DNA of 64,000 nucleotides, taken from NCBI RefSeq assembly GCF_000626635.1, contig NZ_CP007451.1, forward strand, positions 1,798,001 through 1,862,000, read 5' to 3'. Made by a program: the position numbers and the translations under genes. This document shows positions 35,427 through 57,986 of this stretch, piece by piece. Source of the stretch: Draconibacterium orientale. GTDB taxonomy: Bacteria > Bacteroidota > Bacteroidia > Bacteroidales > Prolixibacteraceae. The notes below the pieces were generated by a model. The model ran no database searches. It was given only the letters and a program-made list of their open reading frames with translations, and was not told the DNA's origin. Position 1 is the stretch's first letter. Each line of letters starts with the position of its first letter.

Positions 35427-35515
35427 AATATGCCGGAATCTCTGCCTCTGTTTAGTCGTAACAAAGGGCTTCAGTTCTGAAGAAATTCGTTTGTCGGGAT
35501 CTTCGCATTAAGCAA

Positions 35516-37924: not shown

Positions 37925-37940
37925 TTGTGCTTTATTAAGC

Positions 37941-38024
37941 TGTCATTTCGAGTGAAACATGAACGAGAAATCTGTTACTTATTTGCTTTGCTGCTACAGA
38001 TTTCTCACTGCATTCGAAATGACA
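37941..38024. repeat. Palindromic MITE-like repeat (copy 1)
   Basis: TGTCATTTCGA at 37941 is the reverse complement of the end TCGAAATGACA at 38024, with inner GAGAAATCTGT / ACAGATTTCTC. A second copy with the same ends lies at 61857-61941. It sits between an ABC ATPase and its permease and would fold in their mRNA. Confidence 0.85.
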
Positions 38025-42047: not shown

Positions 42048-42201
42048 ATCCCTAAATCCTCCCGATTACAATCGGGACAAGCTCTAGAGGGGACTTGTTC
42101 ACATCTCCGAATGGCAACTCATTTATTTTGTATTTAACTCTTAAACAATTCTCAAATCGCCTTTTTCCTCTGGATCGAAGCCCCTTTAGGGTTGGGGTAA
42201 A
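42048..42201. repeat. About 150-base repeat, copy 1
   Basis: Begins ATCCCTAAATCCTCCCGATT and ends CCCCTTTAGGGTTGGGG. CCCTAAA near the start pairs with TTTAGGG near the end, and an inner CCCGATTACAATCGGG is palindromic. Clearly homologous along its length to 47861-48013. It lies downstream of the last permease gene of the array. Confidence 0.85.
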
Positions 42202-42209
42202 CTAAGTTG

Positions 42210-42290
42210 CTCATATCTGAGTGTCTCGATCCCGATACGCTTCGCTATCGCGGATCTCCGCTCTCCTTTATTCATAACGGAGAGCTTCGA
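42210..42290 (-). repeat. Palindromic end-module at the 3' end of the sixth permease
   Basis: The gene ends NPV-EALRYE-stop at 42268. Beyond it the minus strand reads a hairpin GCTCTCC/GGAGAGC spanning the stop codon, then ATCCGCGATA/TATCGGGAT, then 18 bases encoding ETLRYE (42227-42210), the apparent older gene end. Confidence 0.8.
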
Positions 42291-44631
42291 CAGGATTAAT
42301 TCGTGAAGCGCGATAAGAATGAAACAACACCGTTGACAAAGCCACAATTGCTGCACACACAAATGTTATTACAAACACCCACCATGAAATGTCGGTTTTA
42401 AAAGCAAAATTGCTTAGCCACTTATTCATTACAAAAATTGTGGGAGGAACTGAAAGTAAAGTTGCGATAACTACCATTATAAAATTTTTGCTCAGGAAAG
42501 ACAACACGATTCCTTGCCCGGAACTTCCGCATACCTTTTTAATTCCAATTTCTTTGGTTTGCGATTTCATAATAAAAAGTGTTAAGCCAAACAGCCCAAA
42601 TGAAGCAATCAGCAGTGCAAAAAATGCCGACACAGAAACAATCACACTCAGGTTTTTCTCCTCGGTATAAACCTCTTTTAGAAATTCATCCATGGTTTTA
42701 TAATTCATGGGCTCGTTGGGAACAATCTTTTGCCATTCAGATTTAATTAAAGGCAGTACACTTTCAAGCGTTCCGGTTTTGTAGTGAACCGCAACCTGTT
42801 GAGCAAAATCGTCGGACGCGAACATAATTAAAGGTGGAATTTTGCTGTGAAATGAGTGCAAGTTAAAGTTTTTGACAACCCCGATTACGGTTCCATCAAC
42901 TACATCAATTTTTTTTCCAACCGGATCGGATAATCCCAATTCGTTTACCGCATTTTCATTGAGTATATATGCGTTTTCATCGTCTCCAAGTTCAAAACTT
43001 CTTCCCTTAATCACTTGAATTCCCATAGCTTCTAAAAAATTATAATCTACTGCCAGAAGCTCAATTGGTACTTTTTGCGATTTATCACCGGGAAATTCCA
43101 TCGGATAAGCGAAAAAACTGGTCATTGGTAAAGCATCTATTGCCCCTCCGGCTGCCAGCACATCAGGAAAAGCCTTAATGCTGTTTATAAATGCTTTTGA
43201 GCTCTGAGAACTTCGGCCCATATCAACGAACAAAACATCCTTGTTATAATAACCCGGATCTTTCTCCAGCGCATACTTGTATTGAGAATAGATAATGAGT
43301 GTACTTGAAACAAAAATGCAGAAGATCACCAATTGAGCAACAATCAGGGCGGAACGCACACGCGACTTTCGTTTTCCTGTCCGCACTGAGTTATTTAAAA
43401 TGCTGATTACATTCAACTTTGATAAATACGACGCGGTATATAGTCCCGACACTAGTCCAATAAGCAAAGTAAGCGACACATAAACAGAAACATAAATGAC
43501 AATATTTGACCGGAGGATTAATAGTTTGGTTTGAAACAAGTCTTCGGCATAAGGTTTCCCCATCCAGGCGAGAAACAGCGCGACTGGTAAAACCAAAATC
43601 GACAGAATCAATGATTCATTCAGCAATTGCCGGCGAATTGATTTCGCCCCGGCACCATTGGTTTTCCGAATCCCAATTTCTTTTGACCTGCCGGTTGAGA
43701 CCGCCGTTGAAAGAATGATATAGTTAAGTGCTGCAATTAAGATTACGAGCAAAGCAATGGCTGAAAAAATCCGAATATTTTTCAGGTTGCCTTGTGGCAG
43801 TCCGCTGTTAATATCCTGCGATCCAAAATAAACATCAGATAAATTTTGAAGGGAGAATTCGTATTTCTCGTCATCGCTAAAAACCTCTTTCTCCAACGAG
43901 CGAAACTGTTCATCAAGCGAACCCCCACTATTGTTTTTATCCAGTAATAACCAGGTTTGCCAGTACATGGAACGCCAGTCTGTTTCAGCATCTCGCTCTT
44001 TAATCCTACTATTAATCTGTTGCAGTGTCCACTTTACATTAATAAAACAATCGGCCTGAAAAGTTGAGTTTACAGGAAAATTATCAAAAACTCCCTTTAC
44101 TTCTAAAACTTCGTCCTTTTCGTCAATTTGGGCAACTAAATTTTGTCCGATGGGATCTTGATCCGGAAAAAGTTTTTGTGCCAGTTCTTTTGAAAGGATA
44201 ATGGAATTTGGTTCATCGAGAATATTCGCTTGCTGACCACGAACATTAATATCGAAGACATTAAATATGTCTGAATCCGCTCCAACAACCCGATCAACAG
44301 GAATATAATCCTCATTCATTTTTACACTAAATTCCGTCACAAAATGGGTTGGAGCCACATATTTTATCTGCGGAAATTCGTCTTGTAAATGCTTTGTAAG
44401 AATATAGGGCGCACCGTCGTCAGTTATTTTTATATCAGCATTATTGTGCAATACGCGGTAAATCTGCTTCCGGTTTTTAAAGCTGGTGTTGTAACTCAAC
44501 TCGTTAATTACATACAACAAAATAACAAACGAGGCTGCCAGGGCAAGCGAAAGCCCCATAATGTTTATTCCGGCAAAAAGTTTGTTTCGTTTTAAAAACC
44601 GAAGTGCTGTGGTTAAGTAGTTTTTTATCAT
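42268..44631 (-). CDS. ABC transporter permease, FtsX/MacB type (sixth of the array)
   Basis: 787 residues. Architecture as in the other permeases: helix at about 20-42, periplasmic domain, helices at about 283-305, 340-360 and 385-405, second periplasmic domain, and three terminal helices. Coupling motifs are SKEIGIRKTNGAGAKSI in the middle and TKEIGIKKVCGSSGQGI near the end. Its last 55 residues (FAFKTDISWWVFVITFV, then RINPVEALRYE) differ from the shared tail of its siblings, so it has escaped homogenisation there. Separated from the other permeases by the Y1 transposase gene; it has no ATPase of its own. Confidence 0.9.
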   Translation of the reverse strand: MIKNYLTTALRFLKRNKLFAGINIMGLSLALAASFVILLYVINELSYNTSFKNRKQIYRVLHNNADIKITDDGAPYILTKHLQDEFPQIKYVAPTHFVTEFSVKMNEDYIPVDRVVGADSDIFNVFDINVRGQQANILDEPNSIILSKELAQKLFPDQDPIGQNLVAQIDEKDEVLEVKGVFDNFPVNSTFQADCFINVKWTLQQINSRIKERDAETDWRSMYWQTWLLLDKNNSGGSLDEQFRSLEKEVFSDDEKYEFSLQNLSDVYFGSQDINSGLPQGNLKNIRIFSAIALLVILIAALNYIILSTAVSTGRSKEIGIRKTNGAGAKSIRRQLLNESLILSILVLPVALFLAWMGKPYAEDLFQTKLLILRSNIVIYVSVYVSLTLLIGLVSGLYTASYLSKLNVISILNNSVRTGKRKSRVRSALIVAQLVIFCIFVSSTLIIYSQYKYALEKDPGYYNKDVLFVDMGRSSQSSKAFINSIKAFPDVLAAGGAIDALPMTSFFAYPMEFPGDKSQKVPIELLAVDYNFLEAMGIQVIKGRSFELGDDENAYILNENAVNELGLSDPVGKKIDVVDGTVIGVVKNFNLHSFHSKIPPLIMFASDDFAQQVAVHYKTGTLESVLPLIKSEWQKIVPNEPMNYKTMDEFLKEVYTEEKNLSVIVSVSAFFALLIASFGLFGLTLFIMKSQTKEIGIKKVCGSSGQGIVLSFLSKNFIMVVIATLLSVPPTIFVMNKWLSNFAFKTDISWWVFVITFVCAAIVALSTVLFHSYRASRINPVEALRYE

Positions 44632-44650
44632 GGTTAATTAAGTCTTGTTA

Positions 44651-44725
44651 AGTGCCATCGGCACGATGTTCTGGTAGCAAAGAAAATGCAGCATTGGCAA
44701 AAGTCCCATAGGGACGGTGTTATCA
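44651..44725 (+). repeat. REP-like hairpins left of the Y1 transposase
   Basis: GTGCC-ATC-GGCAC (44652-44664) followed by GATGTTCTGGTAG, and GTCCC-ATA-GGGAC (44703-44715) followed by GGTGTTATCA. Both share the form hairpin plus GRTGTT, reading towards the transposase gene. Confidence 0.75.
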
Positions 44726-44730
44726 CTTCC

Positions 44731-45192
44731 TCATTCGTAAAATTCGAACAAATATGCATCTTCATATTTTATTTCATTCCTTCTCAACAACGTTAGATAT
44801 TCATCTTTAAATGAACCTTTCCGATGATGTTCTTCTTGTTTCATGATGTATTGAATAACTCTGTTCCGTTGAGAACGAGAATAGGAAAACGCTCCATAGC
44901 CAGCCTGCCATTCAAACTTCCCGGCAACAAATCCTTTTTCATTTATCCATTTCGATGATTTGGCTTTTGCATTCTTCAAAACATCGGAAACAGAAATTGT
45001 TGGGTGTAATTCAAAAAATATGTGAATGTGGTCTTTGTACCCACCTACCGCTAGCGAATAATTTTTGGTTTCCTTTAATGTTCCTGCCATGTATCGGAAC
45101 AATTCATCCCGCCATTTTTCTGAAATAAAATTGCTTCTCCCTTTTACCGAAAACACGGCATGTATATTCATTTGGGTATAGGTATTTGCCAT
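44731..45192 (-). CDS. REP-associated Y1 transposase (IS200/IS605-like)
   Basis: 153 residues, full length for the family. The HUH motif is in YKDHIHIFFELHP (His-Ile-His) and the catalytic tyrosine is probably in IQYIMKQEEHH. Y1 enzymes cut and join single-stranded DNA at hairpins. Two REP-like hairpins stand on each side in opposite orientation, the layout of a RAYT-REP unit. It lies between the fifth and sixth permease genes, in the same direction, and is probably a later insertion into the array. Confidence 0.92.
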   Translation of the reverse strand: MANTYTQMNIHAVFSVKGRSNFISEKWRDELFRYMAGTLKETKNYSLAVGGYKDHIHIFFELHPTISVSDVLKNAKAKSSKWINEKGFVAGKFEWQAGYGAFSYSRSQRNRVIQYIMKQEEHHRKGSFKDEYLTLLRRNEIKYEDAYLFEFYE

Positions 45193-45224
45193 TGTTATTT
45201 ATTTTTATTCGTAATTGTTATTCT

Positions 45225-45300
45225 GACCAAAACATCATCGCTATGCGATTTAACCAATGAGATAAATCTCATTTCTACCATAACATCGTCGCTACGCGAC
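45225..45300 (-). repeat. REP-like hairpins right of the Y1 transposase
   Basis: On the minus strand GTCGC-GTA-GCGAC (45300-45288) followed by GATGTTATGGTAG, and ATCGC-ATA-GCGAT (45249-45237) followed by GATGTTTTGGTCAG. Same hairpin plus GATGTTNTGGT form as on the left side, opposite orientation. The first begins immediately after the stop of the permease gene at 45303. Confidence 0.75.
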
Positions 45301-45302
45301 TT

Positions 45303-47732
45303 CTATTCATATCTGAGTGCCTCAACAGGATTCTGCGTTGCCGCCCGCCAACTCTGCCAGCTAACCGTTAACAATGCAATTCCCAAAGCCAATACTCCGG
45401 CAAGGGCAAATATCCACCAGCTTAATGTGGTTTTGTAGGCAAAGTTTTCGAGCCATTTATGCATGGCGTAGTAAGCAATGGGTGTGGCAATTACAAAAGC
45501 AATGGCTACCCACTTTACAAAGTCTTTGTTGAGCATGGCGAGTATTTCGGAGATTTTGGCTCCGTTTACTTTGCGGATACCGATTTCTTTCACCCGGGCC
45601 AACGAAATTAACCAGGCAATAGAAAACAGGTTGATTACACAGATAAAAATGGCTACAATAACAAACAGACGGAATATTTTTATGAGCTGCATTTCGTTAT
45701 CAAACTGCCGGTTGTAATAATCTTCAACAACTAAATATTCGAACGGATAATTAGGGAATGTGCGGGTAAATTGCGCTTTAATAAAAGGAATAACGGAAGC
45801 AAAATCAGCAGTTGAGGTTTTAATGGAGTAATTTCCCCAAATCATATTTTCGGTCCAATTGATAATAACCATAGGTTTGTGGCTCTCTTTTGCATTACTA
45901 AAATCCACATTCCCGGTAACTCCAATTACCGACACCTCGAACTTTTGCATACCACTTTCATCTTCCATTTTAATGGCTCTTCCGATGGCCTCATCCGGAT
46001 TTTGAAACCCAAGATATTGTAATCCGGCACGATTGATAATACACGAATTGTTTTGTGCTGAAGTGCCTGTTTCCCGGAAATTAGTTCCGGCCAAAAGCGG
46101 AATATTGTAGTTTTTTATAAAATTGTCGTCGGCAACAATAAGCGCGGCTTTCCCGCCTTTTCCAGTCAGCGTTTCGGTAAAATTAAAGTTGTAGGCCGAC
46201 AAATCTCCCGGTACCACGTTCGAACTCGAAAAACCCAATATTGCACTATTGCTCAACAACTCTTCTTCAAAAGCCTGCAGGTTATTAATTCGCTGCGATG
46301 TTATCCGAAGATTTTTAGGAACCTTAATTACCAGGGTATTTTTCACATCAAAACCTTTGTCTTTGTCCATCAGAAAATTAACCTGCTTACTGATTCCGGT
46401 AATTCCGGCAACAATGGCAATAATTATAACAAACTGGGCAACAACAACTATCTGCCTGAACGACACTCCTTTGGAAACCGGTTTGTAGCGCAATTTCAGC
46501 AACTCCAAACTATTAAAACGGTTAATCATTAATGCAGGAATAACACCGCCGATTACTATGCCCAGAAAAATAATTGAAAACAAAATGGCCAGAAAAAGCG
46601 GGCTGGTAAATACCGGTTTCAGAAAAATTCCGAACTGGTTTTGCATAACAGGAATCAACATCCATCCCACAAGCAGCGAAATACAAACGGCAAAAAAATG
46701 AATAATCAACGATTCGGAAAGCGAGGCCCATACAATCTCGGAACGTGTGGCACCGTTTATTTTTTTGATTCCGGTTTTGGGGGCGGAATGAATTAACCTC
46801 GAAAAAGCAAACTGAATGTAATTGAATCCTGATGCGCAAAGAATTAGAATTCCGATGATAAAAACAAGAATTACATATTGTGCACGCGAATTTGTTTCCA
46901 GCTCGTTTTTTAATTCTGAATGCAGATGAATATCGTTCAGCGGTTGAAGATGATAAACATGCTTAACGTTACTTTTTTCGAATTGTAACTTTTTATTTTC
47001 TGCAACAATCGCATTTACTGCTGCTTCAATCTGTTTTACAGCTGCATTATTGTCCAGTTTCAGATAGGTATAAAATCCGGTTTCGCCCCACTGTGCCTTT
47101 GCCGGTGGCGGCAGGTGCATATCGTCGTGAAAGGAAAGCAAAATTTCGGCAGAAAAATGTGCCTGCTCCGGAAGGTCTTTAAAAACACCTTCAATGGTAT
47201 ATTCAAAAACCGGGTATTTAAATAAAACCTGGCCAACAGGGTTAACATCTCCGAAATACTTTTTGGCAGTTCTTTCGGATATAACAGCCGTGTAGGGCCG
47301 GGTTAACACCTCTGATTTCCAGCCCTGGGTTAATGCAATTGAAAACACATCGAGGAAACCGGCAGAGGCATGATAAACATGATTGTTGGAGAAAATTTCG
47401 TCGCCAATTTTATATTGCGGATTGTTTGTTCCGGTAAGATAACCGGCCGCCACAACCTGCGGATATTCGTCTTTTAAGGTAGCTGCCACCCCGCGTTCGC
47501 ATTGCGGAATTGAAAGACTCAATTCGTTTCCGCTGTAAATATCGGTGCTTACCCGGTAAATTTGTTTGTTACCGGGAAATACACGGTCGTAACCTTTTTC
47601 GTAAAACACATACCCCGACACGAGAATAAACGTAACCAAACCAATGCAAAGAGAAAGGAGAAGAAATGCTGAATTTCCTTTTTCACGAACCAGGTTTCTA
47701 AAAGCCATTTTAATGTGATAAAACTGTTTCAT
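45303..47732 (-). CDS. ABC transporter permease, FtsX/MacB type (fifth of the array)
   Basis: 809 residues. Helix at about 20-42, periplasmic domain 1, helices at about 285-305, 335-360 and 380-405, periplasmic domain 2, helices in the last 130 residues. Coupling motifs are APKTGIKKINGATRSEI (middle) and VKEIGIRKVNGAKISEI (end). The last 50 residues (WLENFAYKTTLSWWIFALAG and on to NPVEALRYE) are nearly identical in protein and DNA to three other permeases of the array, although the rest is divergent. Its end has no palindromic module, only REP hairpins. No own ATPase; expected to use the one at 58072-58770. Confidence 0.9.
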   Translation of the reverse strand: MKQFYHIKMAFRNLVREKGNSAFLLLSLCIGLVTFILVSGYVFYEKGYDRVFPGNKQIYRVSTDIYSGNELSLSIPQCERGVAATLKDEYPQVVAAGYLTGTNNPQYKIGDEIFSNNHVYHASAGFLDVFSIALTQGWKSEVLTRPYTAVISERTAKKYFGDVNPVGQVLFKYPVFEYTIEGVFKDLPEQAHFSAEILLSFHDDMHLPPPAKAQWGETGFYTYLKLDNNAAVKQIEAAVNAIVAENKKLQFEKSNVKHVYHLQPLNDIHLHSELKNELETNSRAQYVILVFIIGILILCASGFNYIQFAFSRLIHSAPKTGIKKINGATRSEIVWASLSESLIIHFFAVCISLLVGWMLIPVMQNQFGIFLKPVFTSPLFLAILFSIIFLGIVIGGVIPALMINRFNSLELLKLRYKPVSKGVSFRQIVVVAQFVIIIAIVAGITGISKQVNFLMDKDKGFDVKNTLVIKVPKNLRITSQRINNLQAFEEELLSNSAILGFSSSNVVPGDLSAYNFNFTETLTGKGGKAALIVADDNFIKNYNIPLLAGTNFRETGTSAQNNSCIINRAGLQYLGFQNPDEAIGRAIKMEDESGMQKFEVSVIGVTGNVDFSNAKESHKPMVIINWTENMIWGNYSIKTSTADFASVIPFIKAQFTRTFPNYPFEYLVVEDYYNRQFDNEMQLIKIFRLFVIVAIFICVINLFSIAWLISLARVKEIGIRKVNGAKISEILAMLNKDFVKWVAIAFVIATPIAYYAMHKWLENFAYKTTLSWWIFALAGVLALGIALLTVSWQSWRAATQNPVEALRYE

Positions 47733-47780
47733 TTTTGATTTTATTTTATCGGTTTATTTTTGATCGTTTTAAATTTCTAT

Positions 47781-47846
47781 TTATTCGTATAGTAAAGCGT
47801 CCTCCCCAACGATTCTGTCGGGATTACGCGTAGCTGCCGCCAGCTT
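47781..47846 (-). pseudogene. Remnant of a permease gene 3' end
   Basis: On the minus strand 47846-47820 matches the DNA for the shared SWRAATRNP tail with one G missing. Then 18 unrelated bases, then 21 bases encoding DALLYE-stop (47801-47781). It lies in the gap before the permease at 45303-47732 and has no gene body, so it is a decayed or displaced gene end. Confidence 0.65.
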
Positions 47847-47860
47847 TCCTCTTCTTCCTC

Positions 47861-48013
47861 ATCCCTAAATCCTCCCGATTACAATCGGGACAAGCTCTGA
47901 GGGGGACTTTTTCGTATCTCCGATTGTCAACTCATTTATTTTGTTTTTATCCTTCATATTATTCTCAAATCTTCTTTTTCCTGCGGCCAGAAGCCCCTTT
48001 AGGGATTGGGGAA
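47861..48013. repeat. About 150-base repeat, copy 2
   Basis: Homologous to 42048-42201: same start ATCCCTAAATCCTCCCGATT, same palindrome CCCGATTACAATCGGG and same end with CCCCTTTAGGG. With the remnant and the end-module, it fills the 345-base gap between two permease genes (47733-48077). Confidence 0.85.
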
Positions 48014-48021
48014 AAACGAAA

Positions 48022-48101
48022 CTATTCATATCGGAGTGCCTCAATCCCGATACGCTTTGCTATCGAGGATCTCCGCCTTACTCATACCGTAAGGCTTCGA
48101 C
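48022..48101 (-). repeat. Palindromic end-module at the 3' end of the fourth permease
   Basis: Gene end EALRYE-stop (48098-48078) lies within hairpin GCCTTAC/GTAAGGC; then GATCCTCGATA/TATCGGGATT; then another 21 bases encoding EALRYE-stop (48042-48022) with different codons. Confidence 0.85.
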
Positions 48102-50411
48102 AGGATTTCGCGTAGCAGCCCGCCAGCTTTGCCAACTTACCGTTAGCAGTGCAATTCCCAGTGCGAGTATTCCGGCCAAAGCAAATATCCACCAACTTAA
48201 AGTGGTTTTGTAGGCAAAGTTTTCGAGCCATTTATGCATGGCGTACCAGGCAATGGGCGTGGCAATTACTACAGCCGCAATTACCCAAAGCACAAAATCT
48301 TTGTTTAGCAAAAACAGTATTTCCGAAACGGTTGCTCCGTTTACTTTACGCACTCCAATTTCTTTGGTCCGGTTCAGACTGATCAGGAAGATCTGCCCCA
48401 AAATCCCCATACAAGTCAATACAATGGCGATAAACGAAAAGAAGGAAATCGACTTTGAAAGTTTATCTTCTTTGATATACATGGCCTGAAACTGGTCGTC
48501 GTAAAAAGTAAATTCCATGGGGTCATCCGGTAACATGGTTTCCCATACTTTTCGAAGTTCATTGATTTGTTGCCCGATGTTTCCGGGATTCAGTCGCAGT
48601 GAAAGCGTATTGTACTCCCTGTCCGATTCGTAAATCAAAGCAACCGGACTTAAAGAAGAATGCAGTGACTCCACATTAAAGTTATTTACTGTGCCCACAA
48701 CATCATAACCGCCTTCTCGCCCATTTTTAAATTTCTTACCGTCAATATTTTCCCAACCATAACGTTTTACTGCAGCTTCATTCATCAGGCAAGACTTTCC
48801 TTTATCGCCCGCTAAAAAATTTCGGCCATCAAGCAACTGAACTCCCATTGTTTTCAGGAAATTTTCAGTCACATAAATACAGTTCACCATAAATTCATCG
48901 TCTTCTACCCCACTTCCCATGCTCATATTAATATTCCCCGGATAACCGTTACTCAAGGCACTACTTGATACAAAAGAAAGATCGCTGATTTCATTTCTCA
49001 AAGCCGTCTGATTTTCGAACAACCACGGGAGTTCGATTCTCACCAGGTGTTCTTCGTTAAAACCTAAATCAAAGTGTTTTACATACTGCAGCTGTTTAAA
49101 AATAAGCATCACCACTGCAATCAATGCTATGGAAACTGTTAGCTGAAAGGTAAGCATAAGCTGTTTCCCGATTTGTTTTCCGTTTCTTTTCCGTCCTCCC
49201 TGCAGAAAATCGACAATATTAAACTGCGATAGAATATAGATAGGCGCTAAACTGTTCAGAAGAATAATGCAAGCTATGGTGCCAAGAAAAACAGGCAACA
49301 AATGTTGAAGGTTTACATCGGAAAGTTGAATTTCTCTTCCAAATAAGGTTTCGGTTGTCGGTAAAAGAAGCGACACCAGCGCGATTGAAATAGTTAGTGC
49401 AATTAATATTCCTAATGTAACTTCAATAAGCGAATCGACAAGCAAATGTGGTTTCCCGGCACCATTGGTTTTGTTGATACCAATTTCTTTCATTTTTGCA
49501 TACTGCATCGACACCGTGTAATTCAGATAATTAATGCTCGAAAGGAGAATAATCAGAATGGCAATTGCCATAAAAATGAACAGCATTTTTGAATTGCCTT
49601 TGGTGTGCTCATCTGTCCAACCCAATTTTGTTGGAGAAAGATAAATATCAGATAAACTTTGCAGCGCCAGGCTATCGGTAGTTGTATTGAACTGCCCGAT
49701 AGAAGCATTCATCTTGTCTGAAAAATCATCAGGATCGATATCATTTTTTAGCAAGAGAAAGTGCTCGGTTGGAAATATACAAACGCCGTTATTGCAGGCT
49801 TGTGCCATCTGAAAGTCCTCATTTTCGCTGTTCAAAAGTAACTCTGCTTTAAAACTCGAATTTTCGGGCAAGTCTTGCATAACAGCCGTAACCGTTGCGG
49901 TAAAAAATTCCTCCTTAATCGTCTTTCCTAACGGGTTCTCATCTCCAAAAAGTTTTTTGGCCACCGACTCAGTTATTACTGCCGAGTTCAACTGACTAAA
50001 AGGCTTCTCTTCCAGGCTGGATAAAACGGGTATTGAAAATACATTGAAAAAGTTATTATTCGTAGAAATAATGTATTCAACGCGTGTGTAATTTCGTGTT
50101 TCAGGATCTTTTAGCGTGATAGGAAAATAAGAGAAAGCGAGTGGACAAGTTGTTTCAACATCCGGGTAGTGTTCAGCAATTACAGCATTTATTTTGTAGT
50201 CGAGTCCCGATTCATTCTTTTTCGCATCGTACAAACGATAAATTTTTTCATGCCGGGCAAAGTGTTTGTCCACATTGTGTTCAGCACTGTAGTATAAGGC
50301 AATTAAAATACTGGCCGTAAAACCGATAGCAAACCCACCGATAATAAGCGATGAATACAGCTTGTTCTTCAACAAATTCCTGAATGCCAGTTTTATTTTA
50401 AATCGTAACAT
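48078..50411 (-). CDS. ABC transporter permease, FtsX/MacB type (fourth of the array)
   Basis: 777 residues from the ATG at 50411 (MLRFKIKLAFRNLLKNK); the open frame extends 11 codons, but the family begins here. Standard two-unit FtsX/MacB layout with helices near 20-40, 275-300, 330-355, 375-400 and three at the end. Coupling motifs are MKEIGINKTNGAGKPHL and TKEIGVRKVNGATVSEI. The last 50 residues are the shared array tail. The terminal six codons and stop are inside a palindromic module that is followed by an older copy of the same codons. Expected substrate and ATPase as for the array. Confidence 0.9.
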   Translation of the reverse strand: MLRFKIKLAFRNLLKNKLYSSLIIGGFAIGFTASILIALYYSAEHNVDKHFARHEKIYRLYDAKKNESGLDYKINAVIAEHYPDVETTCPLAFSYFPITLKDPETRNYTRVEYIISTNNNFFNVFSIPVLSSLEEKPFSQLNSAVITESVAKKLFGDENPLGKTIKEEFFTATVTAVMQDLPENSSFKAELLLNSENEDFQMAQACNNGVCIFPTEHFLLLKNDIDPDDFSDKMNASIGQFNTTTDSLALQSLSDIYLSPTKLGWTDEHTKGNSKMLFIFMAIAILIILLSSINYLNYTVSMQYAKMKEIGINKTNGAGKPHLLVDSLIEVTLGILIALTISIALVSLLLPTTETLFGREIQLSDVNLQHLLPVFLGTIACIILLNSLAPIYILSQFNIVDFLQGGRKRNGKQIGKQLMLTFQLTVSIALIAVVMLIFKQLQYVKHFDLGFNEEHLVRIELPWLFENQTALRNEISDLSFVSSSALSNGYPGNINMSMGSGVEDDEFMVNCIYVTENFLKTMGVQLLDGRNFLAGDKGKSCLMNEAAVKRYGWENIDGKKFKNGREGGYDVVGTVNNFNVESLHSSLSPVALIYESDREYNTLSLRLNPGNIGQQINELRKVWETMLPDDPMEFTFYDDQFQAMYIKEDKLSKSISFFSFIAIVLTCMGILGQIFLISLNRTKEIGVRKVNGATVSEILFLLNKDFVLWVIAAVVIATPIAWYAMHKWLENFAYKTTLSWWIFALAGILALGIALLTVSWQSWRAATRNPVEALRYE

Positions 50412-50484
50412 AGTTTTTTGCATTGCGCGCAGAGCATGGAGCAAAGCGAAACAGAATTCACTTCTCCCCCAGCTCTTTGCTTAT

Positions 50485-50692
50485 TTATTCATATCTCAAC
50501 GCGTCAATACTAACGAAACTTCGTTTGTCAGCATCTACGCACTTCTCACTACTCGTATCGTAGAGCTTCAATCCCGATACGCTTTGCTATCGAGGATCTC
50601 CGCCTTACTCATACCGTAAGGCTTCGACCCCGATGCTTCGATCGGGATTCCTGCCTACCGCAGGCAGATCCTCACTCATATCTGAGTGACTC
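50485..50692 (-). repeat. Stack of palindromic end-modules after the third permease
   Basis: Four successive copies of the six terminal codons plus stop on the minus strand: ESLRYE 50692-50672 (the gene's own), EALRYE 50625-50605, EALRYE 50569-50549 and DALRYE 50505-50485, spaced 67, 56 and 64 bases. The spacers contain hairpins CCTGC/GCAGG with CCCGAT/ATCGGG, then GATCCTCGATA/TATCGGGATT, then AACGAA/TTCGTT. The first three stop regions are themselves palindromic (CACTCA/TGAGTG, GCCTTAC/GTAAGGC, CTAC/GTAG). Confidence 0.85.
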
Positions 50693-53047
50693 AACAGGAT
50701 TTCGCGTAGCAGCCCGCCAGCTTTGCCAACTAACTGTTAGTAGCGCAATGCCCAAAGCCAACACTCCGGCCAGTGCAAATATCCACCAGCTTAGTGTGGT
50801 TTTGTAGGCGAAGTTTTCGAGCCATTTATTCATGGCGTACCAGGCAATAGGCGTTGCAATTCCAATGGCAATTACCACCCATTTAATAAAGTCTTTATTC
50901 AGCATGGTAAGTATCTCTGCAACTTTGGCACCGTTTACTTTACGGATGCCAATTTCCTTTATCTTATTTTCACTCGATATTGCAGCTTGTCCGAAGAGCC
51001 CCAAACAGGCAATAAACACAGCCAACAGGGTAAAGAAATTAAGGATACCGGCAATTTGATTATCCTTCTTGTATAAATCTTCGTAATCCTGATTAAGAAA
51101 ATGATACTCAAATGGTATCCCCGGATTATTTTCGGTCCAGATGTTTTCAACAAATTCGATCGTTGCCGGAATATCGCCGCTTATTCTGAAAAACAAGGAG
51201 CTGAAATAGGATTCTTCCGCTTCGTTGTTATACAAATGAAATACCTGAGGATTTACTTTCTGATGGAGCGATTTAAAATAAGTATCCTTTATAACACCTA
51301 AAATTATTCCCTTTTTCCCGTAAAGCGAAAATTCGGCACCAACAGGATCTGTCAATCCCATTAAACGCAAAGCTTCCTCGTTTACAATATAATTTTGCTT
51401 GTCGGCAGTAATTTCATTTGAAAAATTACGACCTGCAACAAACTCAACATTCATCATCTCCAGGTAATGGTCGTCGATGCGTGTGGTTTCCATCGCCACA
51501 GGATGCGCAGTATTTTGGTTCTGCCATTCTCCGTTTTGTTTCCACGAAATCCCAACAGTTCCGTTCACCTGACTAAACGGGGGACAATCTTTTAAACTAA
51601 TTTCAGTAATGTTCGGATTTTCAGACAATGAATGCCTCACCACCGAAATTTTCTGATTTATATTTCCCCTTAAATAAGTGTATGCAATCTGATCGGTTTC
51701 AAATCCAAGTTTTTTGTGGTTGATATACTGCATCTGTTTGTTTACACCAATGGCAGCCACAATAAGTAAAACTGCGATAACATTCTGAAAAACCACCATA
51801 CTTTTCAAAACACCTGACTTTTGCTTGTTGTAACGATTCATCAGTTCGATAGCTTTAGCACGCGAAAACACAAGTGCCGGATAAATTGTACAAAGCGTGA
51901 GGGTAAAAAACAATACCAGCGCCATGATGCCAATAAATCGAGGCGTAAAAATATGTTCATTAAAAGGCTTTCCAATCATGTTTTGAAATGGAGCCCGAAC
52001 CACACCTATAACTATTATCGCCAAAATGAACGAAACAATTATTAGTGCGGCATTTTCAGCAATACTATTCAGAAAAACCGTTTTGCGGCTTGCTCCACAT
52101 ACTTTTGCAACAGATGTGGCCTTTTGCCTTTTTGCAAACATCGAAACGGTAAGATTAACAAAGTTGATGCAGGCAAGTAACAAAATCAGCAAAGCAACCG
52201 AACCAAAAATGTATAAATAGCGGAAGTCGCCTGTTTCTCCCAAACGGTTGTTAACCGAGTAGTCGAGATAAATACTCCCCAATGGCCGCAGATATGCAGA
52301 TATTTCACCGGATTGAAGGTGTGGCATTCCGTTCGACTTTGCAACTCTTGTAATTTCTTGCCCGGTGTTTTCAGGATCGCTACCCGGAGTTAATAAAACA
52401 TAAGTACGAAAATTGGGATCGCCCCATAATAACCCGCAGAAATGGTATTGCTCCAGCAGTTTTTGCGGTAAAACATAATCGAACTGAATGTGCGATTGTG
52501 ACGGTAAATCTTTGATTACTGCATAAATCGTAACAAACTCTTTTCCTCTTATCTGAATTTCTTTTCCCAAAGGATCTTCATTCCTAAAATAGCGTTTGGC
52601 AAACGATTCGGTAATAACTATTCCTTCTACCTGCTCCAGCGCTTTAACCGGGTCTCCGTACAAACTCTGAAAACTAAACATTCGGAATAACTGTGGATCG
52701 GCAGTAATTCCGTTCTCTTCGAAATACATATTTTCCTTGTATTTAAAGGCAAATCCGGGAGCATTTCTTAAACGCACAGCCAGCTTTACATTTGCAATCT
52801 CATCTTCGATTACAGGTGCCAGCGGGTTGGGTGTTCCCGCCATCGACATCTCTTCTTTTTGATTTTTGAAATTAATCTGGTAGATATCGGTATAGTTTGT
52901 ATTAAACTTGTCATATTCTGTTTCGTTGTAAATCCATGCCAGAATAATAAAAACACAAGTCAGGCCAATTGTTAGCCCCAAAAGATTGAGCACAGAAAAC
53001 AACTTGTGCTTCAATAAACTTCGGATTATCATTTTCAGATTTTTCAT
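50672..53047 (-). CDS. ABC transporter permease, FtsX/MacB type (third of the array)
   Basis: 791 residues. Helix at about 15-38, periplasmic domain 1, helices near 285-305, 335-360 and 380-400, periplasmic domain 2, three helices at the end. In the middle coupling loop it has KATSVAKVCGASRKTV in place of KEIGIRK, so the first half may not engage the ATPase in the usual way. The second loop is KIKEIGIRKVNGAKVAEI. Shared array tail, ending NPVESLRYE. The 3' end is followed by three more copies of the terminal codons. No own ATPase. Confidence 0.9.
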   Translation of the reverse strand: MKNLKMIIRSLLKHKLFSVLNLLGLTIGLTCVFIILAWIYNETEYDKFNTNYTDIYQINFKNQKEEMSMAGTPNPLAPVIEDEIANVKLAVRLRNAPGFAFKYKENMYFEENGITADPQLFRMFSFQSLYGDPVKALEQVEGIVITESFAKRYFRNEDPLGKEIQIRGKEFVTIYAVIKDLPSQSHIQFDYVLPQKLLEQYHFCGLLWGDPNFRTYVLLTPGSDPENTGQEITRVAKSNGMPHLQSGEISAYLRPLGSIYLDYSVNNRLGETGDFRYLYIFGSVALLILLLACINFVNLTVSMFAKRQKATSVAKVCGASRKTVFLNSIAENAALIIVSFILAIIVIGVVRAPFQNMIGKPFNEHIFTPRFIGIMALVLFFTLTLCTIYPALVFSRAKAIELMNRYNKQKSGVLKSMVVFQNVIAVLLIVAAIGVNKQMQYINHKKLGFETDQIAYTYLRGNINQKISVVRHSLSENPNITEISLKDCPPFSQVNGTVGISWKQNGEWQNQNTAHPVAMETTRIDDHYLEMMNVEFVAGRNFSNEITADKQNYIVNEEALRLMGLTDPVGAEFSLYGKKGIILGVIKDTYFKSLHQKVNPQVFHLYNNEAEESYFSSLFFRISGDIPATIEFVENIWTENNPGIPFEYHFLNQDYEDLYKKDNQIAGILNFFTLLAVFIACLGLFGQAAISSENKIKEIGIRKVNGAKVAEILTMLNKDFIKWVVIAIGIATPIAWYAMNKWLENFAYKTTLSWWIFALAGVLALGIALLTVSWQSWRAATRNPVESLRYE

Positions 53048-53062
53048 TCTTAACTTGTTTTG

Positions 53063-53140
53063 TTATTCGTATCTCAAAGCCTCAATCCCGATACTTCGCT
53101 ATCGGGGATCTCTGCCTTACTCGTACCGTAAGGCTTCGAC
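53063..53140 (-). repeat. Palindromic end-module at the 3' end of the second permease
   Basis: Gene end EALRYE-stop at 53137-53117 inside hairpin GCCTTAC/GTAAGGC; then GATCCCCGATA/TATCGGGATT; then a second EALRYE-stop (53083-53063) with different codons. Confidence 0.85.
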
Positions 53141-55495
53141 AGGATTCCGTGTCGCAGCTCTCCAGCTTTGCCAACTTACCGTTAGCAGTGCAATTCCCAA
53201 TGCGAGTATTCCGGCCAAAGCAAATATCCACCAGCTTAATGTGGTTTTGTAGGCAAAGTTTTCGAGCCAAAGATTCATGGCATACCAGGCAATTGGGCAG
53301 CTTACTAAAAATGCAAGACCAACCCATTTAACAACTTCCATGTTTAAGGTTGTTAATACCTCTGTAACTTTTGCTCCATTTATTTTTCTGATTCCTATTT
53401 CTTTTTTCCGTTGAACAGCAGAAAAAGAAATTAAACCAAACAAGCCCAAACAGGCTATAAACACTGCCAGAAGTGTGAATATTTTTATGAGTGAACTGAA
53501 TTCCATTTCGGTACGGTAAAGCGCTTCAAAGTCTTTATCCAAAAACTGATATTCGAATGGTACATTGGGTGAAAACTCTTTCCATACGCCCTCAATAGTG
53601 GCGATGGTATTTTGCATGTCCATTCCTGAAACTTTTATGTTAATGCATGAATTCCAGGGAAGGTAGCACAGCATGTATGGTTCAATCTGATTATGTAACG
53701 AATAAATGTGAAAATCTTTAATTACGCCGACAATGGTGATATCTCTATCGAGAAAAGTTACCACAGAACCTACCGGATTTTTCAATTCCATTTTCTTTAC
53801 AAAACACTCATTAACCAGCGCTGTATTATTCTCGTCATTTTTATTACTCCATAAAAAGTTTCGTCCCTCTAAAAGTTCGATTCCGAATGTTTCAATAAAA
53901 TCGGGGTCGATGGTTGTTGCCCGATAATTCCTGAATTCGCCGTTTACTTTATGTTTTGAGCCAATATTCAGATTGCCGGCAAAGGTGCCGTTCGAACGAG
54001 CAACATTCTGAATAGTTGGATTTTTCAGCAAGGTCTCCCGAAAAGCCCGATACGACTTGTCGATACTGGACCCGCCGGAAAGATGAATGATATGCTCTTT
54101 ATCAAAACCAAGCTCCTTGTTTTTAATAAAGTTAACTTGTTTCGAGATGGCTATAACAGCTATTAAAAGGAAAATTGATACAACAAATTGCGATACAATT
54201 AGAATTTGTTTCAAGGTATTTCCCTTTTTGCCTCGATGAATTTCGTTACGCAAGCTTTTTACAGGCGCTAAATTTGTTAAAAACCAGGCCGGATAAATAC
54301 CTGCTAAAAAGCCGATTAAAATTACCCCGGCAATTAAAACGAGTAATCCTTTAATAATTTTGTCGGATTCAACAATGGTTTGAAAACCGGTAAAACCGGA
54401 TAATAAGGGATGTATTAAATACACCAGAAAAACGGCCAGAATTGCCGAGATTGAAGTAATCAGAATTGATTCGAATAAAAACTGCCGGAACAAAGTGCTT
54501 TTGTGCGAACCGATAACCTTTCGAATACCTATTTCTTTAATTCGGGTTGTTGATATAGCAAGCGACAGATTTATGTAATTTATAATGGCAATTGCCAATA
54601 TAAACAAGCCGATAAAAAAGATCAAATATACGGATGAACGTTTGGCTCCGCTCGCAAAATGCACTTCTGTTAAGGGAACAAGAGTTAACTTATAATCTGC
54701 TGCTCTGGCGCTGCCTTCTTCTGCTTGCCAACGTTCCGAAATAAAATCTGTCCAGAATTCAGGAGACTCGGCATTAATTTGCTCAGCGAGCTCAGAATTT
54801 GGCAATTTAACAAAAGTGGCAAATCCCCAGTTTACCCAATCTTCACTTATATTACCATTTCTTATTTTATGGTATGGAATTGTTGACATTGATATTAATC
54901 CATTATAAAGAATGGATGAATTTGAAGGAACATCTTCAATAACACCCTGAACAGTAAAACCATAGCTTTTAGCAGGGAAGTCGCTGAGGTATTCAATTTG
55001 CTTTCCTATGGGATTCTCATTTCCAAATATTTTTTTTGCTAAACGTTCTGAAAGAATAATGGAATTAGGCTCAGTAAGAGCTGTATTTTTGTCTCCTGAC
55101 AAGAGTTTAAAATCAAAAAAGTTAAAGAAATTTGGGTCGGTAAAAATCAGGTCCGATGTTCTGAATGTTTCTGTCCCATTTTTCAAATAACCTTTCCTTC
55201 CTCCACCGTACCATTCATCAATACGAACTACTTCATCGATAGCCGCAATGTTGTCTTTTAAAAACTGTGCACTTGCCGGGGGGATTGACCTCGAATCGCC
55301 AAGATGAATTTTATAGATATTGCTTTGCTGTTTGTGGAAACTATCGAAACTAAACTGGTGATCGACATAACGAATAATAAGTGCAAATACCGCAATACCA
55401 ACCGCAAAGCCAATAATATTTATTGCTGAATGCAGCTTATTACGAAGCAAATTTCGAAAAATGATTCTTTGATTACCAGTTCTAATAAACTTCAT
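53117..55495 (-). CDS. ABC transporter permease, FtsX/MacB type (second of the array)
   Basis: 792 residues. Helix at about 22-42, periplasmic domain 1 with WYGGGRKGYLKNG, helices near 290-310, 335-360 and 385-410, periplasmic domain 2, three terminal helices. Coupling motifs are IKEIGIRKVIGSHKSTL and KKEIGIRKINGAKVTEV, both canonical. It has the shared array tail ending NPVEALRYE. Its start is 142 bases after the end of the first permease, and 69 bases separate its end from the third. Expected to work with the single ATPase of the operon. Confidence 0.9.
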   Translation of the reverse strand: MKFIRTGNQRIIFRNLLRNKLHSAINIIGFAVGIAVFALIIRYVDHQFSFDSFHKQQSNIYKIHLGDSRSIPPASAQFLKDNIAAIDEVVRIDEWYGGGRKGYLKNGTETFRTSDLIFTDPNFFNFFDFKLLSGDKNTALTEPNSIILSERLAKKIFGNENPIGKQIEYLSDFPAKSYGFTVQGVIEDVPSNSSILYNGLISMSTIPYHKIRNGNISEDWVNWGFATFVKLPNSELAEQINAESPEFWTDFISERWQAEEGSARAADYKLTLVPLTEVHFASGAKRSSVYLIFFIGLFILAIAIINYINLSLAISTTRIKEIGIRKVIGSHKSTLFRQFLFESILITSISAILAVFLVYLIHPLLSGFTGFQTIVESDKIIKGLLVLIAGVILIGFLAGIYPAWFLTNLAPVKSLRNEIHRGKKGNTLKQILIVSQFVVSIFLLIAVIAISKQVNFIKNKELGFDKEHIIHLSGGSSIDKSYRAFRETLLKNPTIQNVARSNGTFAGNLNIGSKHKVNGEFRNYRATTIDPDFIETFGIELLEGRNFLWSNKNDENNTALVNECFVKKMELKNPVGSVVTFLDRDITIVGVIKDFHIYSLHNQIEPYMLCYLPWNSCINIKVSGMDMQNTIATIEGVWKEFSPNVPFEYQFLDKDFEALYRTEMEFSSLIKIFTLLAVFIACLGLFGLISFSAVQRKKEIGIRKINGAKVTEVLTTLNMEVVKWVGLAFLVSCPIAWYAMNLWLENFAYKTTLSWWIFALAGILALGIALLTVSWQSWRAATRNPVEALRYE

Positions 55496-55513
55496 TGTTT
55501 CCGTATTTTAATG

Positions 55514-55658
55514 TTTATTCATACCTCAAAGCTTCAATCCCGATACGCTTCGTTATCGAGGATCTCCGCCTTACTCATACCGTAAGGCTTCGACCCCGAT
55601 GCTTCGATCGGGATTCCTGCCTACCGCAGGCAGGTCGTCACTCATATCTGAGTGCTTC
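55514..55658 (-). repeat. Two stacked palindromic end-modules at the 3' end of the first permease
   Basis: Three copies of EALRYE-stop on the minus strand: 55658-55638 (the gene's own, palindrome CACTCA/TGAGTG), 55590-55570 (inside GCCTTAC/GTAAGGC) and 55534-55514. The spacers are nearly identical to those after the third permease (CCTGC/GCAGG plus CCCGAT/ATCGGG; then GATCCTCGATA/TATCGGGATT). Confidence 0.85.
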
Positions 55659-57986
55659 GACAGGATTTCGTGTTGCAGCTCTCCAGCTTTGCCAGCCTAC
55701 TGCCATAAACGCTATAAACAGTGCAAAAGCAGCGCTAAGCAGAAAGTATACAGGACTGATGGAAACACGGTTTATAAAATGTTGAAGCCATTGCTGCATG
55801 GTAAAATAGCTTCCAACAAAAGCTATCGCAATAGCAATAAGAACCAGGACAAATGTTTCTTTCAACAACTCGCGAACAACCTGCGATTCAGTGCTTCCAA
55901 TTACTTTACGTATTCCAATTTCTTTTTTCCGTCGGTTCACATTCATTACCGAAAGTGCCATTAAGCCGATAAAGCTGATGATGATTGCCAGTCCGGCACC
56001 AGTGGTAACCAGTTTTATCATGCGTTCTTCGTTGGTGTATTTATTGGCGTAAACAGCAGTTAACCGAAATTTACTGACAATTAATTCAGGCGAACAACTT
56101 TTTATCACCTCATCAATTTGTGCCAGCTGAGCAGAAGTGGTTCCAACTTTTGTGCGCACATAAAGGTTGTTCACGTTGTTGGCTTTGTTTATTATAACAA
56201 GAGGTTCGATAGAAGCACCGGGATGATCGATGTAGTAAAAGTCTTTTGCAATGGCGATTACCGTTAAGGGAGCTTTGAACATTTGAACCAAACTCCCAAC
56301 TTTTACATCGGGGCCCAGCATTTTTGCAGCCGCTTCGTTAAGAATTACCGCATTTTTATCTGCTTCTGAATTAGTAAAATAACGCCCGTCAACAAGTTCC
56401 AGTTGCATGGTTTTGGCAAATCCGGGATGTACCCGATATTCATTTACACTATTAAAATTTCCCGGATCGCCATATTTTCTGATTCCTTGTCCGCTTGCAC
56501 CTTGCCCCATTCCATGATCAGAAAAAGCAACATCTTCAACAAAAGCCAGTTGCCTTAATTCATCAGTAATTGCCGATGCACTTCTTCGCACCTCGTTATT
56601 TAGGTTGGTAATGCCAATTACATTCTCGGGATTAAAACCCAGTGGCACTTCTTTTAAATAGTTCACCTGGGCGAAAACAATTACCAGCGCACTAATGAGA
56701 AAAACCGATATGGAAAACTGCGAAATTACGGCAATGCGCGACAAAGTGCTTTTACGTTTTACTTTTGAGGACTTTCCTTTAAGCGCATCCACGAGGTTTA
56801 ATTTCGACAAATAATAGCTTGGATAAGCACCCGAAATAAGGATTAAAACTGTTAGAATTGCCAAAACCAATAATATTCCGCTGAAGGAAAACATATCCGA
56901 CAGCTCGATCTGGCTTTTCATTAATCGGGCAAAGGCAGGCTGAACAAGCGCTGTTAGCCCTAACGCCAGCACAAACGACAAAAGACTGATTACTGATGTT
57001 TCGGTAAAAAACAAACGCGACAATGTGCTTTGCGTTGCTCCCAACGATTTTCGTGAAGCAATTTCGGCAATTCGTTTTTCGCCATGCAAAACGTACAGAT
57101 TAATGTAGTTTACCATGGCAATAAGCAACACCAAAAAGGCAATGCCGGCAATAATAAAAACATGTGTTAAATTGGCTTTTGGCGATAGATCGAAATCAGC
57201 AACGGTATGCAAGTGCAAATCGGCCAGCAATTCTGTTCCGGTTTCTACAGTCGCATTAAAAGGTTCACCCCACGGTTTCATTAACTCGTTGTTTGCAGCG
57301 GCTATTTTTTCGCCAACTGCAGCTAAATCGGCATTCTCGTCAATTCTGAAATAAGTGTACAGTTCAAGCCCTCCCCAGTTTTCGGGATGAACCGTCTGCA
57401 TCGACATCAATAAATCGAAATTAAAATGCGTGTTGTTGGGTAAATCATTAATTACTCCCGTTACTGTAGCCGACTCCTCCGAAACATTCAAAACCTCGCC
57501 AACACAATCCACGGTATTAAATACCTTTAATGCCGTTGACCGGGTAATAACCACGTTGTTTTCACCTACCAAAGCATTGCTGGTGTTTCCCTGAATTAAC
57601 TCCAATCCGAATACATCGAAGAAATCCTTATCGGCAAACAGTAATTGAAAGTTGGGAAATTTTTGTTTCTCGTATTCCGCTGTTGTTTCCCACCCTCTGT
57701 AAATTTGTGTTGCCGATTTTATTTCCGGAACGCTTAACGGAATTTCAGTGTATGAGCTGCGTGAAGCGATTCCCAAATTTGTAACATTGCCATCTTCGGT
57801 TACAGAGTTGTAAAGTCGAAGAACATTGTTTTTTGTTTGAAAATGCTGGTCATAGCTTAGCTCGTGTTTCAGGTAAACCGACAACAGCAAAACAGTACTT
57901 AATCCGATGGCCAATCCGGGAAGGTTTACAAAAACCAACAAGGGATTTCGCCTAAACATTCTGAATATAAATCGTAAATTTTTCAT
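55638..57986 (-). CDS. ABC transporter permease, FtsX/MacB type (first of the array)
   Basis: 782 residues, directly downstream of the ATPase (85-base gap). Helix at about 18-38, periplasmic domain 1, helices near 280-300, 325-350 and 370-395, periplasmic domain 2, three terminal helices. Coupling motifs are EKRIAEIASRKSLGATQSTL and KKEIGIRKVIGSTESQVV. Only the last 18 residues (WQSWRAATRNPVEALRYE) match the shared array tail; the preceding helices (INRVSISPVYFLLSAAFAL) are its own, showing that tail exchange can be short. Probably the main partner of the ATPase. Confidence 0.9.
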   Translation of the reverse strand: MKNLRFIFRMFRRNPLLVFVNLPGLAIGLSTVLLLSVYLKHELSYDQHFQTKNNVLRLYNSVTEDGNVTNLGIASRSSYTEIPLSVPEIKSATQIYRGWETTAEYEKQKFPNFQLLFADKDFFDVFGLELIQGNTSNALVGENNVVITRSTALKVFNTVDCVGEVLNVSEESATVTGVINDLPNNTHFNFDLLMSMQTVHPENWGGLELYTYFRIDENADLAAVGEKIAAANNELMKPWGEPFNATVETGTELLADLHLHTVADFDLSPKANLTHVFIIAGIAFLVLLIAMVNYINLYVLHGEKRIAEIASRKSLGATQSTLSRLFFTETSVISLLSFVLALGLTALVQPAFARLMKSQIELSDMFSFSGILLVLAILTVLILISGAYPSYYLSKLNLVDALKGKSSKVKRKSTLSRIAVISQFSISVFLISALVIVFAQVNYLKEVPLGFNPENVIGITNLNNEVRRSASAITDELRQLAFVEDVAFSDHGMGQGASGQGIRKYGDPGNFNSVNEYRVHPGFAKTMQLELVDGRYFTNSEADKNAVILNEAAAKMLGPDVKVGSLVQMFKAPLTVIAIAKDFYYIDHPGASIEPLVIINKANNVNNLYVRTKVGTTSAQLAQIDEVIKSCSPELIVSKFRLTAVYANKYTNEERMIKLVTTGAGLAIIISFIGLMALSVMNVNRRKKEIGIRKVIGSTESQVVRELLKETFVLVLIAIAIAFVGSYFTMQQWLQHFINRVSISPVYFLLSAAFALFIAFMAVGWQSWRAATRNPVEALRYE

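Follow-up and report, generated by a model that had tools for sequence, protein, structure and literature searches.

Tandem permease genes with repeated end codons

The window, by which we mean the whole stretch of DNA analysed (64,000 nucleotides of Draconibacterium orientale, contig NZ_CP007451.1, positions 1,798,001 to 1,862,000), encodes seven permeases of the MacB/FtsX type, all on the minus strand; one gene ends at 35516 and the other six lie within 42268-57986. The C-terminus of all seven permeases is NPVEALRYE or NPVESLRYE. The genes are as follows, in window coordinates.

35516-37942, minus strand: permease upstream of an old module (open-frame coordinates, stop to stop)
42268-44631, minus strand: permease 1, MacB/FtsX-type
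44731-45192, minus strand: Y1 (IS200-like) transposase gene, with hairpins of its own unlike the module hairpins
45303-47732, minus strand: permease 2, without a module; the Y1 element lies immediately 3' of its stop
48078-50444, minus strand: permease 3
50672-53047, minus strand: permease 4
53117-55495, minus strand: permease 5
55638-57986, minus strand: permease 6

The codons for the last six residues recur 3' of the stops. Specifically, the 50672 permease has four consecutive end-codon copies on the minus strand, with first bases at 50692 (functional, ESLRYE), 50625, 50569 and 50505. On the same strand, copies start at 55658 (functional), 55591 and 55535 for the 55638 permease, at 53137 (functional) and 53083 for the 53117 permease, at 48098 (functional), 48042 and 47801 (a remnant) for the 48078 permease, and at 42288 (functional) and 42227 (ETLRYEQ, stop lost) for the 42268 permease. 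A first-pass annotation of the window had reported the four consecutive copies and nine extra copies in all; we located every one of them, the nine (E/D)ALRYE-type ends lying behind five permeases, and add a tenth behind a sixth (EALCYD-stop, first base 35472, 3' of the 35516 permease). Outside the window, at 3.863 Mb of the genome, another chain, likewise absent from that list, lies 3' of a permease. The end-codon pattern has a single unrelated match in the window (16/18, at 30538).

The module of about 58 bases that had been described as nearly identical at four sites corresponds to our type d, which is 54-56 bp long and occupies 48043-48098, 50570-50625, 53084-53137 and 55536-55591. At 42228-42288, the second hairpin resembles that of type d and the first hairpin differs. 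The modules, displaced ends and associated elements are as follows.

50626-50692, minus strand: first module of the 50672 chain; functional ESLRYE-stop, CCTGC/GCAGG palindrome, then AATCCCGATCGAAGCATCGGGGT hairpin
50570-50625, minus strand: second module of the 50672 chain, type d; EALRYE-stop hairpin GCCTTAC..GTAAGGC and GATCCTCGATA..TATCGGGAT hairpin
50506-50569, minus strand: third module of the 50672 chain, type b-like; EALRYE-stop and GATGCTGACAAACGAAGTTTCGTTAGTAT hairpin
50485-50505, minus strand: final displaced end of the 50672 chain, DALRYE-stop
55592-55658, minus strand: module adjoining the 55638 permease; functional end, CCTGC palindrome type
55536-55591, minus strand: type d module, 55638 permease
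55515-55535, minus strand: displaced end EALRYE-stop, 55638 permease
53084-53137, minus strand: type d module with the functional end of the 53117 permease
53063-53083, minus strand: displaced end EALRYE-stop, 53117 permease
48043-48098, minus strand: type d module with the functional end of the 48078 permease
48022-48042, minus strand: displaced end EALRYE-stop, 48078 permease
47861-48014, minus strand: decayed ORF-less DUF559-type element, repeat D7 (aligned with the ORF-less unit of L098)
47781-47820, minus strand: older displaced permease end DALLYE-stop with a decayed palindrome ahead, 3' of the 47861-48014 element
42228-42288, minus strand: type a module with the functional end of the 42268 permease, hairpin GCTCTCC..GGAGAGC
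42207-42227, minus strand: displaced end, stop lost, ETLRYEQ
42048-42201, minus strand: second D7 copy, about 50 nt of whose core align with the ORF-less DUF559-type unit
35473-35536, minus strand: decayed module with the functional end of the 35516 permease
35452-35472, minus strand: decayed displaced end EALCYD-stop, 35516 permease

Anatomy of the modules

The modules, hairpin structures in which the end of the entered gene is encoded anew, are real and recurrent. Each module is about 45-70 bp long, contains no gene, and is composed of the end codons, a short tag and a palindrome from one of a few families, with the consensus GAR GCN YTN MGN TAY GAR, stop, tag and a palindrome such as ATCCTCGATAGCGAAGCGTATCGGGAT. 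The tags seen in the module alignment include GGAG, GAAG, GTAG, GCAG, CGAA and CAAA, among others. The end codons fold against an inverted arm in many types; in types a, b and d, the ALR codons pair with an arm past the stop (GCTCTCC/GGAGAGC, GCACTTC/GAAGTGC and GCCTTAC/GTAAGGC), and the corresponding pairing at L083 is GCATTAAG/CTTAATGC. In type g, the RNPVEA codons (CGAAATCCTGTCGAAGC) are followed past the stop by a look-alike, CGAAATCCCGATCGAAGC, which forms a palindrome arm.

In 17 modules, which were picked from 48 for possessing both hairpins and were scored on a structure of our own, 18 cells are changed on both sides, compared with 5.7 in shuffles, and 95.2% of the cells are paired; the pairing is lost when the partner arm is slid. 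The first stem shows a modest gain in the 54 filled ends, with a length of 4.89 compared with 4.16 for swapped tails (highest of 200 swaps, 4.61). Against the two-hairpin anatomy that we propose, RNAalifold predicts the second hairpin but not the first from 30 modules, and the first stem has just 2 pairs in 10 of the 54 filled ends. A known RNA family was rejected as the identity of the modules, since a search of window positions 35000-58500 gave no Rfam match at E 0.1.

Distribution across the genus

Array stretches were taken from 31 congeneric genomes by means of a protein search, and we read 218 permease ends from 20 genomes, the window included, retaining ends with a frame of at least 250 aa and a terminal NP-V-like motif. 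At a threshold of 15/18 or higher, an extra copy lies within 200 nt of the stop in 57 of the 218 ends; five of the 218 tails are shorter than 200 nt. Chance is rejected as the origin of these copies, because the reversed and complemented patterns each give 0 and five first-order Markov resamplings give 0-1. Within about 290 nt, 62 of the 218 ends, spread over 17 genomes, have an extra copy and 156 have none; at least some of these copy-less ends hold decayed modules, 8 of the 156 having a palindrome-like stretch under a loose pattern. Among named records (78 loci from the 80 best matches, a survey that partly overlaps that of the genus), 10 of 126 ends have extra copies, including ends from Draconibacterium sediminis, D. 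mangrovi, uncultured Draconibacterium, and MAGs of Prolixibacteraceae and Bacteroidales; three of the ten copies (L192, L198 and L212) lie about 60 nt or more past the stop, without a module of this kind. Judged from titles and abstract openings, the open-licence PMC matches listed include no publication on such modules.

The modules are confined to permease ends. Searched with up to 3 mismatches in the 31 genomes, the two commonest palindromes give 15 and 10 matches and 0 control matches, and all 25 matches adjoin a permease end on the same strand. A covariance model, for which 150 candidates per genome were scored, gives at least 70 matches in 21 of the 31 genomes; 65 of the 67 readable ones lie at a permease end, and the two others are a displaced permease end 3' of a DUF559 gene and a match in genome G009. 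The first-pass annotation had held that its idea of targeted insertion would fall if modules turned up mostly at unrelated sites, and the idea withstood this search because the module palindromes were not found away from permease ends. An order-wide search of 247 genomes, run with stricter filters at E 0.001, found matches in the D. orientale genome alone; it missed G019, which has a weak match in the genus search, and its silence on other genomes argues only weakly for absence.

Almost the same module can be found in several genomes, at different genes whose tails differ (examples are L120, L141 and L143). Free transposition of the modules is unlikely. A dispersed palindrome family was rejected as well: the D. 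orientale genome has six instances of ATCCCGAT..ATCGGGAT, namely one at a permease end, four within a longer repeat of another kind and one that is terminator-like, and genus-wide the two module palindromes occur at permease ends alone. The same genome also contains four copies of a longer intergenic repeat with ATCCCGATAGCGGAGCGTATCGGGAT-like palindromes (L045, L046, L048 and L049), whose CCTCGTTAGCTTGC..AGGTAGTTC-like end is similar to sequence flanking the L033 Y1 gene.

The functional copy as the usual newcomer

We compared first and displaced copies at 54 ends where the first extra copy lies 10-64 nt past the stop, omitting 8 of the 62 because the copy is farther away. The first copies comprise 29 distinct sequences with an entropy of 4.46 bits, the displaced copies comprise 49 with 5.56 bits, and the 156 copy-less ends, subsampled to 54, comprise 49.4 with 5.57 bits. 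The Leu codon is CTC or CTT in 37/54 first, 18/54 displaced and 43/156 copy-less ends (P 2e-7 and 0.49), and the stop is TAA in 15/54, 30/54 and 109/156, respectively (P 1e-7 and 0.07), the displaced copies being intermediate. At the base preceding the Glu codon, displaced copies resemble copy-less ends (P 0.15) and first copies are C-rich (P 5e-12). The displaced copies thus look like formerly functional ends, as they are as diverse as copy-less ends and the Leu codon and the base before Glu agree. Of these copies, 26 of 54 still read EALRYE-stop and 28 of 54 have 1-3 residue changes; the protein ends of the filled genes are still NPV(E)(A/S)LR(Y/H)E.

These comparisons indicate that the first copy has generally arrived later and that the displaced copy is generally the former functional end. 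Two proposals of the first-pass annotation are borne out by the same 54 ends: displaced ends use varied synonymous codons (49 distinct, compared with 29 among first copies), and a module carrying its own EALRYE-stop enters ahead of the last six codons and leaves the protein unchanged, which the diversity and codon tests support as the general rule. The entry point most likely lies between the second and third bases of the Val codon in NPV|EALRYE. The opposite direction, with the first copy native and the downstream copy new, is rejected as a general rule by the diversity and codon data, although one locus fits it better. At this syntenic array end, no module is present in L107, one in the window, and one plus the beginning of a second in L167; in L167 it is the first copy, not the displaced copy, that resembles the end of the empty orthologue L107.

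Exchange of permease ends and probable copying between paralogues

Across 50 orthologous permease pairs, which are not independent, mean identity falls from 0.90-0.93 in the body to 0.78-0.85 in the last 100 nt. Orthologous bodies are up to 95-98% identical between genomes, with the last 100-250 nt mostly at 0.7-0.9 and with a different tail and next gene (pairs within L080-L119), and the tails differ in 11 of the 12 pairs whose bodies are at least 95% identical. Such near-identical bodies with divergent last 100-250 nt, tails and next genes clearly point to exchange of permease ends by recombination.

There are 11 pairs of same-type modules within one genome (1 of type a, 6 of type b, 1 of type d and 3 of type g). 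In these pairs, about 150 nt of upstream sequence are common to both members for types b and d, and the greater part of that tract for type g; the type b pairs, three of which come from one genome, have identities of 0.83-0.92 over the last 150 nt, compared with 0.70-0.78, and 0.66 beyond -180. The single type a pair has no common tract beyond -60. Between genomes, upstream identity is raised for types d and g, partly for type b, and not for type a.

Since recombination shuffles the ends, and since some same-type modules of one genome have about 150 nt of upstream sequence in common, we favour a reading in which the hairpin modules recode the C-terminus at the 3' ends of tandem permeases and paralogue-copying recombination is their vehicle, a reading to which we assign about even confidence. 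In this process, a permease end that is stalled or broken, possibly by a nuclease, would pair with a paralogue via the conserved 3' coding region, the recipient would copy across the gene end and module of that paralogue, and rejoining would probably occur through short homology at T-N-GARGC. The module would enter at NPV|EALRYE and bring a new EALRYE-stop, and the old end would be shifted downstream, where it would decay. Repeated entry would produce chains, presumably with the newest module beside the gene.

Several observations are difficult for paralogue copying. Plain gene conversion predicts no right boundary at a nearly constant base, and conversion that ends within the 21-nt copy should yield mosaic displaced ends. 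Repeat D3, a block of two modules, is present at both the 50672 and the 55638 gene with nearly no common upstream tract, the identity being 0.83 over 30 nt, 0.75 over 57 nt and 0.63 over 90 nt, and discrete insertion fits this block better. The type a modules of different genomes likewise have no common tract, and the L167-L107 comparison runs in the opposite direction. We saw no donor-recipient event among the arrays read. Recombination between paralogues, which the first-pass annotation had named as the alternative to its own proposal, thus clearly acts on these gene ends, as the 50 pairs indicate, but accounts less well for the D3 block. Its targeted-insertion proposal holds as to end replacement at a fixed point and finds no support as to a self-contained integrative element: at the inspected starts of neighbouring ORFs, no gene for a recombinase or transposase could be linked to the modules.

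DUF559 endonuclease elements in the arrays

Genes of the DUF559 family (PF04480) are concentrated in the permease arrays, with 12 of 83 matches in the 31 genomes lying inside arrays and 0.5 expected, where array limits include 5 kb flanks that we set after the array copies had been noticed. Three array copies match PF04480 at E 2e-29 to 2e-35, and the nearest solved relative is 3hrl, an endonuclease-like protein (E 3e-16). The array elements sit 3' of permease ends, intact or decayed, begin after a sequence like ACCCCAAACCCCTGAAGGGGCTT and finish at a sequence like AAGTCCCCTTCAGGGGATTTAGGGGT. Elements with common ends are found at L087, L095, L098, L103, L104, L108, L113, L272 and L309, with decayed ORF-less relatives at 42048-42201 and 47861-48014. 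An ORF-less unit at L098 joins the first and last nuclease codons (MSIGDETSPLQGI); decayed relatives of this unit lie in the tails of the 42268 and 48078 permeases, and the remnant at 47781 lies behind one of them. PD-(D/E)XK_3 nuclease genes also adjoin array permeases (L267, 9826-10200 and 15094-15469; L273, 11600-11969), the first having been tested against PF13366.

A displaced permease C-terminus lies directly 3' of the DUF559 gene and is clear in 4 of the 12 array copies (L087, L095, L104 and L309), where it starts with AGYTGG or a variant; it is weak or decayed in 2 (L108 and L113), and none is seen in 6. The weak cases may be chance, as the reversed sequence also yields 5 matches at the threshold of the scan. 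Six non-array DUF559 loci inspected with their flanks show no such C-terminus duplication.

These elements raise the possibility of homing, in which an array DUF559 (Vsr/PD-(D/E)XK-like) would cut permease genes at their conserved 3' ends, a filled paralogue would serve as repair template so that C-terminus and element are copied and the old end is displaced, and the modules would be ORF-less passengers or footprints. The array enrichment, the displaced C-termini (four clear, two weak or decayed), the existence of ORF-less units and the order at the 48078 permease, with a decayed unit and then the displaced end at 47781, all argue for homing, and the arrangement equals that of the fungal mitochondrial mORF gene hybrids as outlined in the relevant passages of PMC3630166. 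However, the displaced piece begins about 57 nt farther upstream (AGYTGG) than with the modules, so the DUF559 junction differs from the module junction, and the modules are without the ACCCC..GGGGT ends of the DUF559 units. Moreover, 71 of the 83 matches lie outside arrays, 6 of the 12 array copies show no displaced C-terminus, and array copies are present in only 9 genomes, compared with 21 for modules. Overall, we regard homing as unlikely. A possible role of DUF559 is the most attractive idea to arise from these data. A broader formulation, bacterial homing without intron or intein, in which an array DUF559 would act in trans on the 3' ends of a tandem family and the modules would be ORF-less elements that carry a synonymous copy of the displaced codons and so enter without effect on the protein, seems to us rather unlikely.

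Y1 transposition and RNA elements

REP-like transposition by a Y1 (IS200/RAYT) transposase would make the two hairpins the termini of a very small single-strand transposon, which would enter a short target, such as CCKGT, without target duplication. The two hairpins themselves, a GNAG-like tag by the second hairpin in many modules and the constant junction suit this view, as do the movement of the two-module D3 block with little upstream sequence, the Y1 gene directly 3' of permease 2 and the 12 Y1 matches in the D. orientale genome. A 5-base target would, however, scatter copies genome-wide, yet all 25 palindrome matches lie at permease ends, and the Y1 genes read with their flanks (two sets, of five and ten) bear other hairpins or no matching ones, which makes this explanation quite improbable. 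The association of Y1 genes with the arrays was rejected as a lead, as it reflects mostly one kind of Y1 gene (L259-L262 and L264) with unrelated hairpins. In two genomes, a Y1 gene with gtcgcgtagcgac-type hairpins begins right after a permease stop (44731-45192 in the window and about 9268-9726 in L106); at these two loci the proteins are 99% identical, the upstream end codons differ, and the next gene is the same.

Very improbable is an RNA element with local slippage, in which hairpins kept as mRNA 3' stem-loops would be copied by tandem duplication or template switching at palindromes without travel between genes: the covariation in 17 modules and the type g look-alike arm are in its favour, but near-identical modules occur at different genes, tails and genomes (L120, L141 and L143), displaced ends are not degraded versions of the first copy, and the Rfam search was negative at E 0.1 for 35000-58500.

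Comparison with known elements

Some integrative elements restore the 3' end of the gene that they enter, and the module, as a newcomer, likewise restores the gene end. Unlike integrase-site elements, the modules show no identical direct repeats, as first and displaced copies differ at synonymous codons. Rickettsia palindromic elements are short palindromes in coding genes that add a peptide inside unrelated genes. The likeness to them drawn in the first-pass annotation fails in this respect, because the modules leave the protein unchanged and add no residues.

REP/BIME palindromes, in the portions of PMC3733652 that describe them, are short hairpins with the tetranucleotide tag GTAG that lie 3' of genes, in chains and dispersed, some of which give the flanking ORF a TAG stop. 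Similarly, the modules are short tagged hairpins, 3' of genes and chained. Unlike REP/RAYT systems as described there, they were found only at the ends of one gene family and include its last six codons. Their tags are mostly of the form GNAG, GTAG among them, or CGAA/CAAA, beside the GTAG or CGTC of REPs. A cognate RAYT was not found, and there were no module-like repeats at the flanks of the five and ten Y1 genes read.

The closest parallel is the fungal mitochondrial mORF hybrids, which the relevant sections of PMC3630166 describe for Allomyces macrogynus atp6 and for Glomus atp6, atp9, cox2 and nad3. According to those sections, a replacement C-terminus is in phase, the native one is displaced downstream, and the elements encode a homing endonuclease; the new and old C-termini diverge more in DNA than in protein, those of Glomus atp6 being 63.5% identical in DNA and 91% in protein. 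Set beside that account, the modules likewise insert a C-terminus in phase and displace the native end (the general rule in 54 filled ends, with the L167 locus contrary), but they encode the last codons alone, measure about 45-70 bp, form chains and are spread over many paralogues. The array DUF559 units come closer than the modules to the fungal type so described, as they encode an endonuclease. The modules depart from the REP, Rickettsia-element and integrase-site families in dispersal, added residues and direct repeats, respectively, and act like fungal C-terminus-replacing elements without an encoded nuclease.

If this is true, the modules would be a miniature bacterial counterpart of mobile elements that replace a host-gene C-terminus, parasites hidden by re-encoding what they displace. 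Their chains would allow the succession of events at a single site to be read off, and past coding ends would survive in the displaced copies, making it possible to measure from sequence alone how fast and in which direction transporter arrays exchange gene ends. Permease body and end can differ in history, which bears on the naming of orthologues in such arrays. In two further permease tails, L132 and L139 (IEALRYE/IESLRYE), displaced C-termini are split by a CCCGAGTACTCGGG palindrome within the SWQSW codons, possibly a third kind of insertion.
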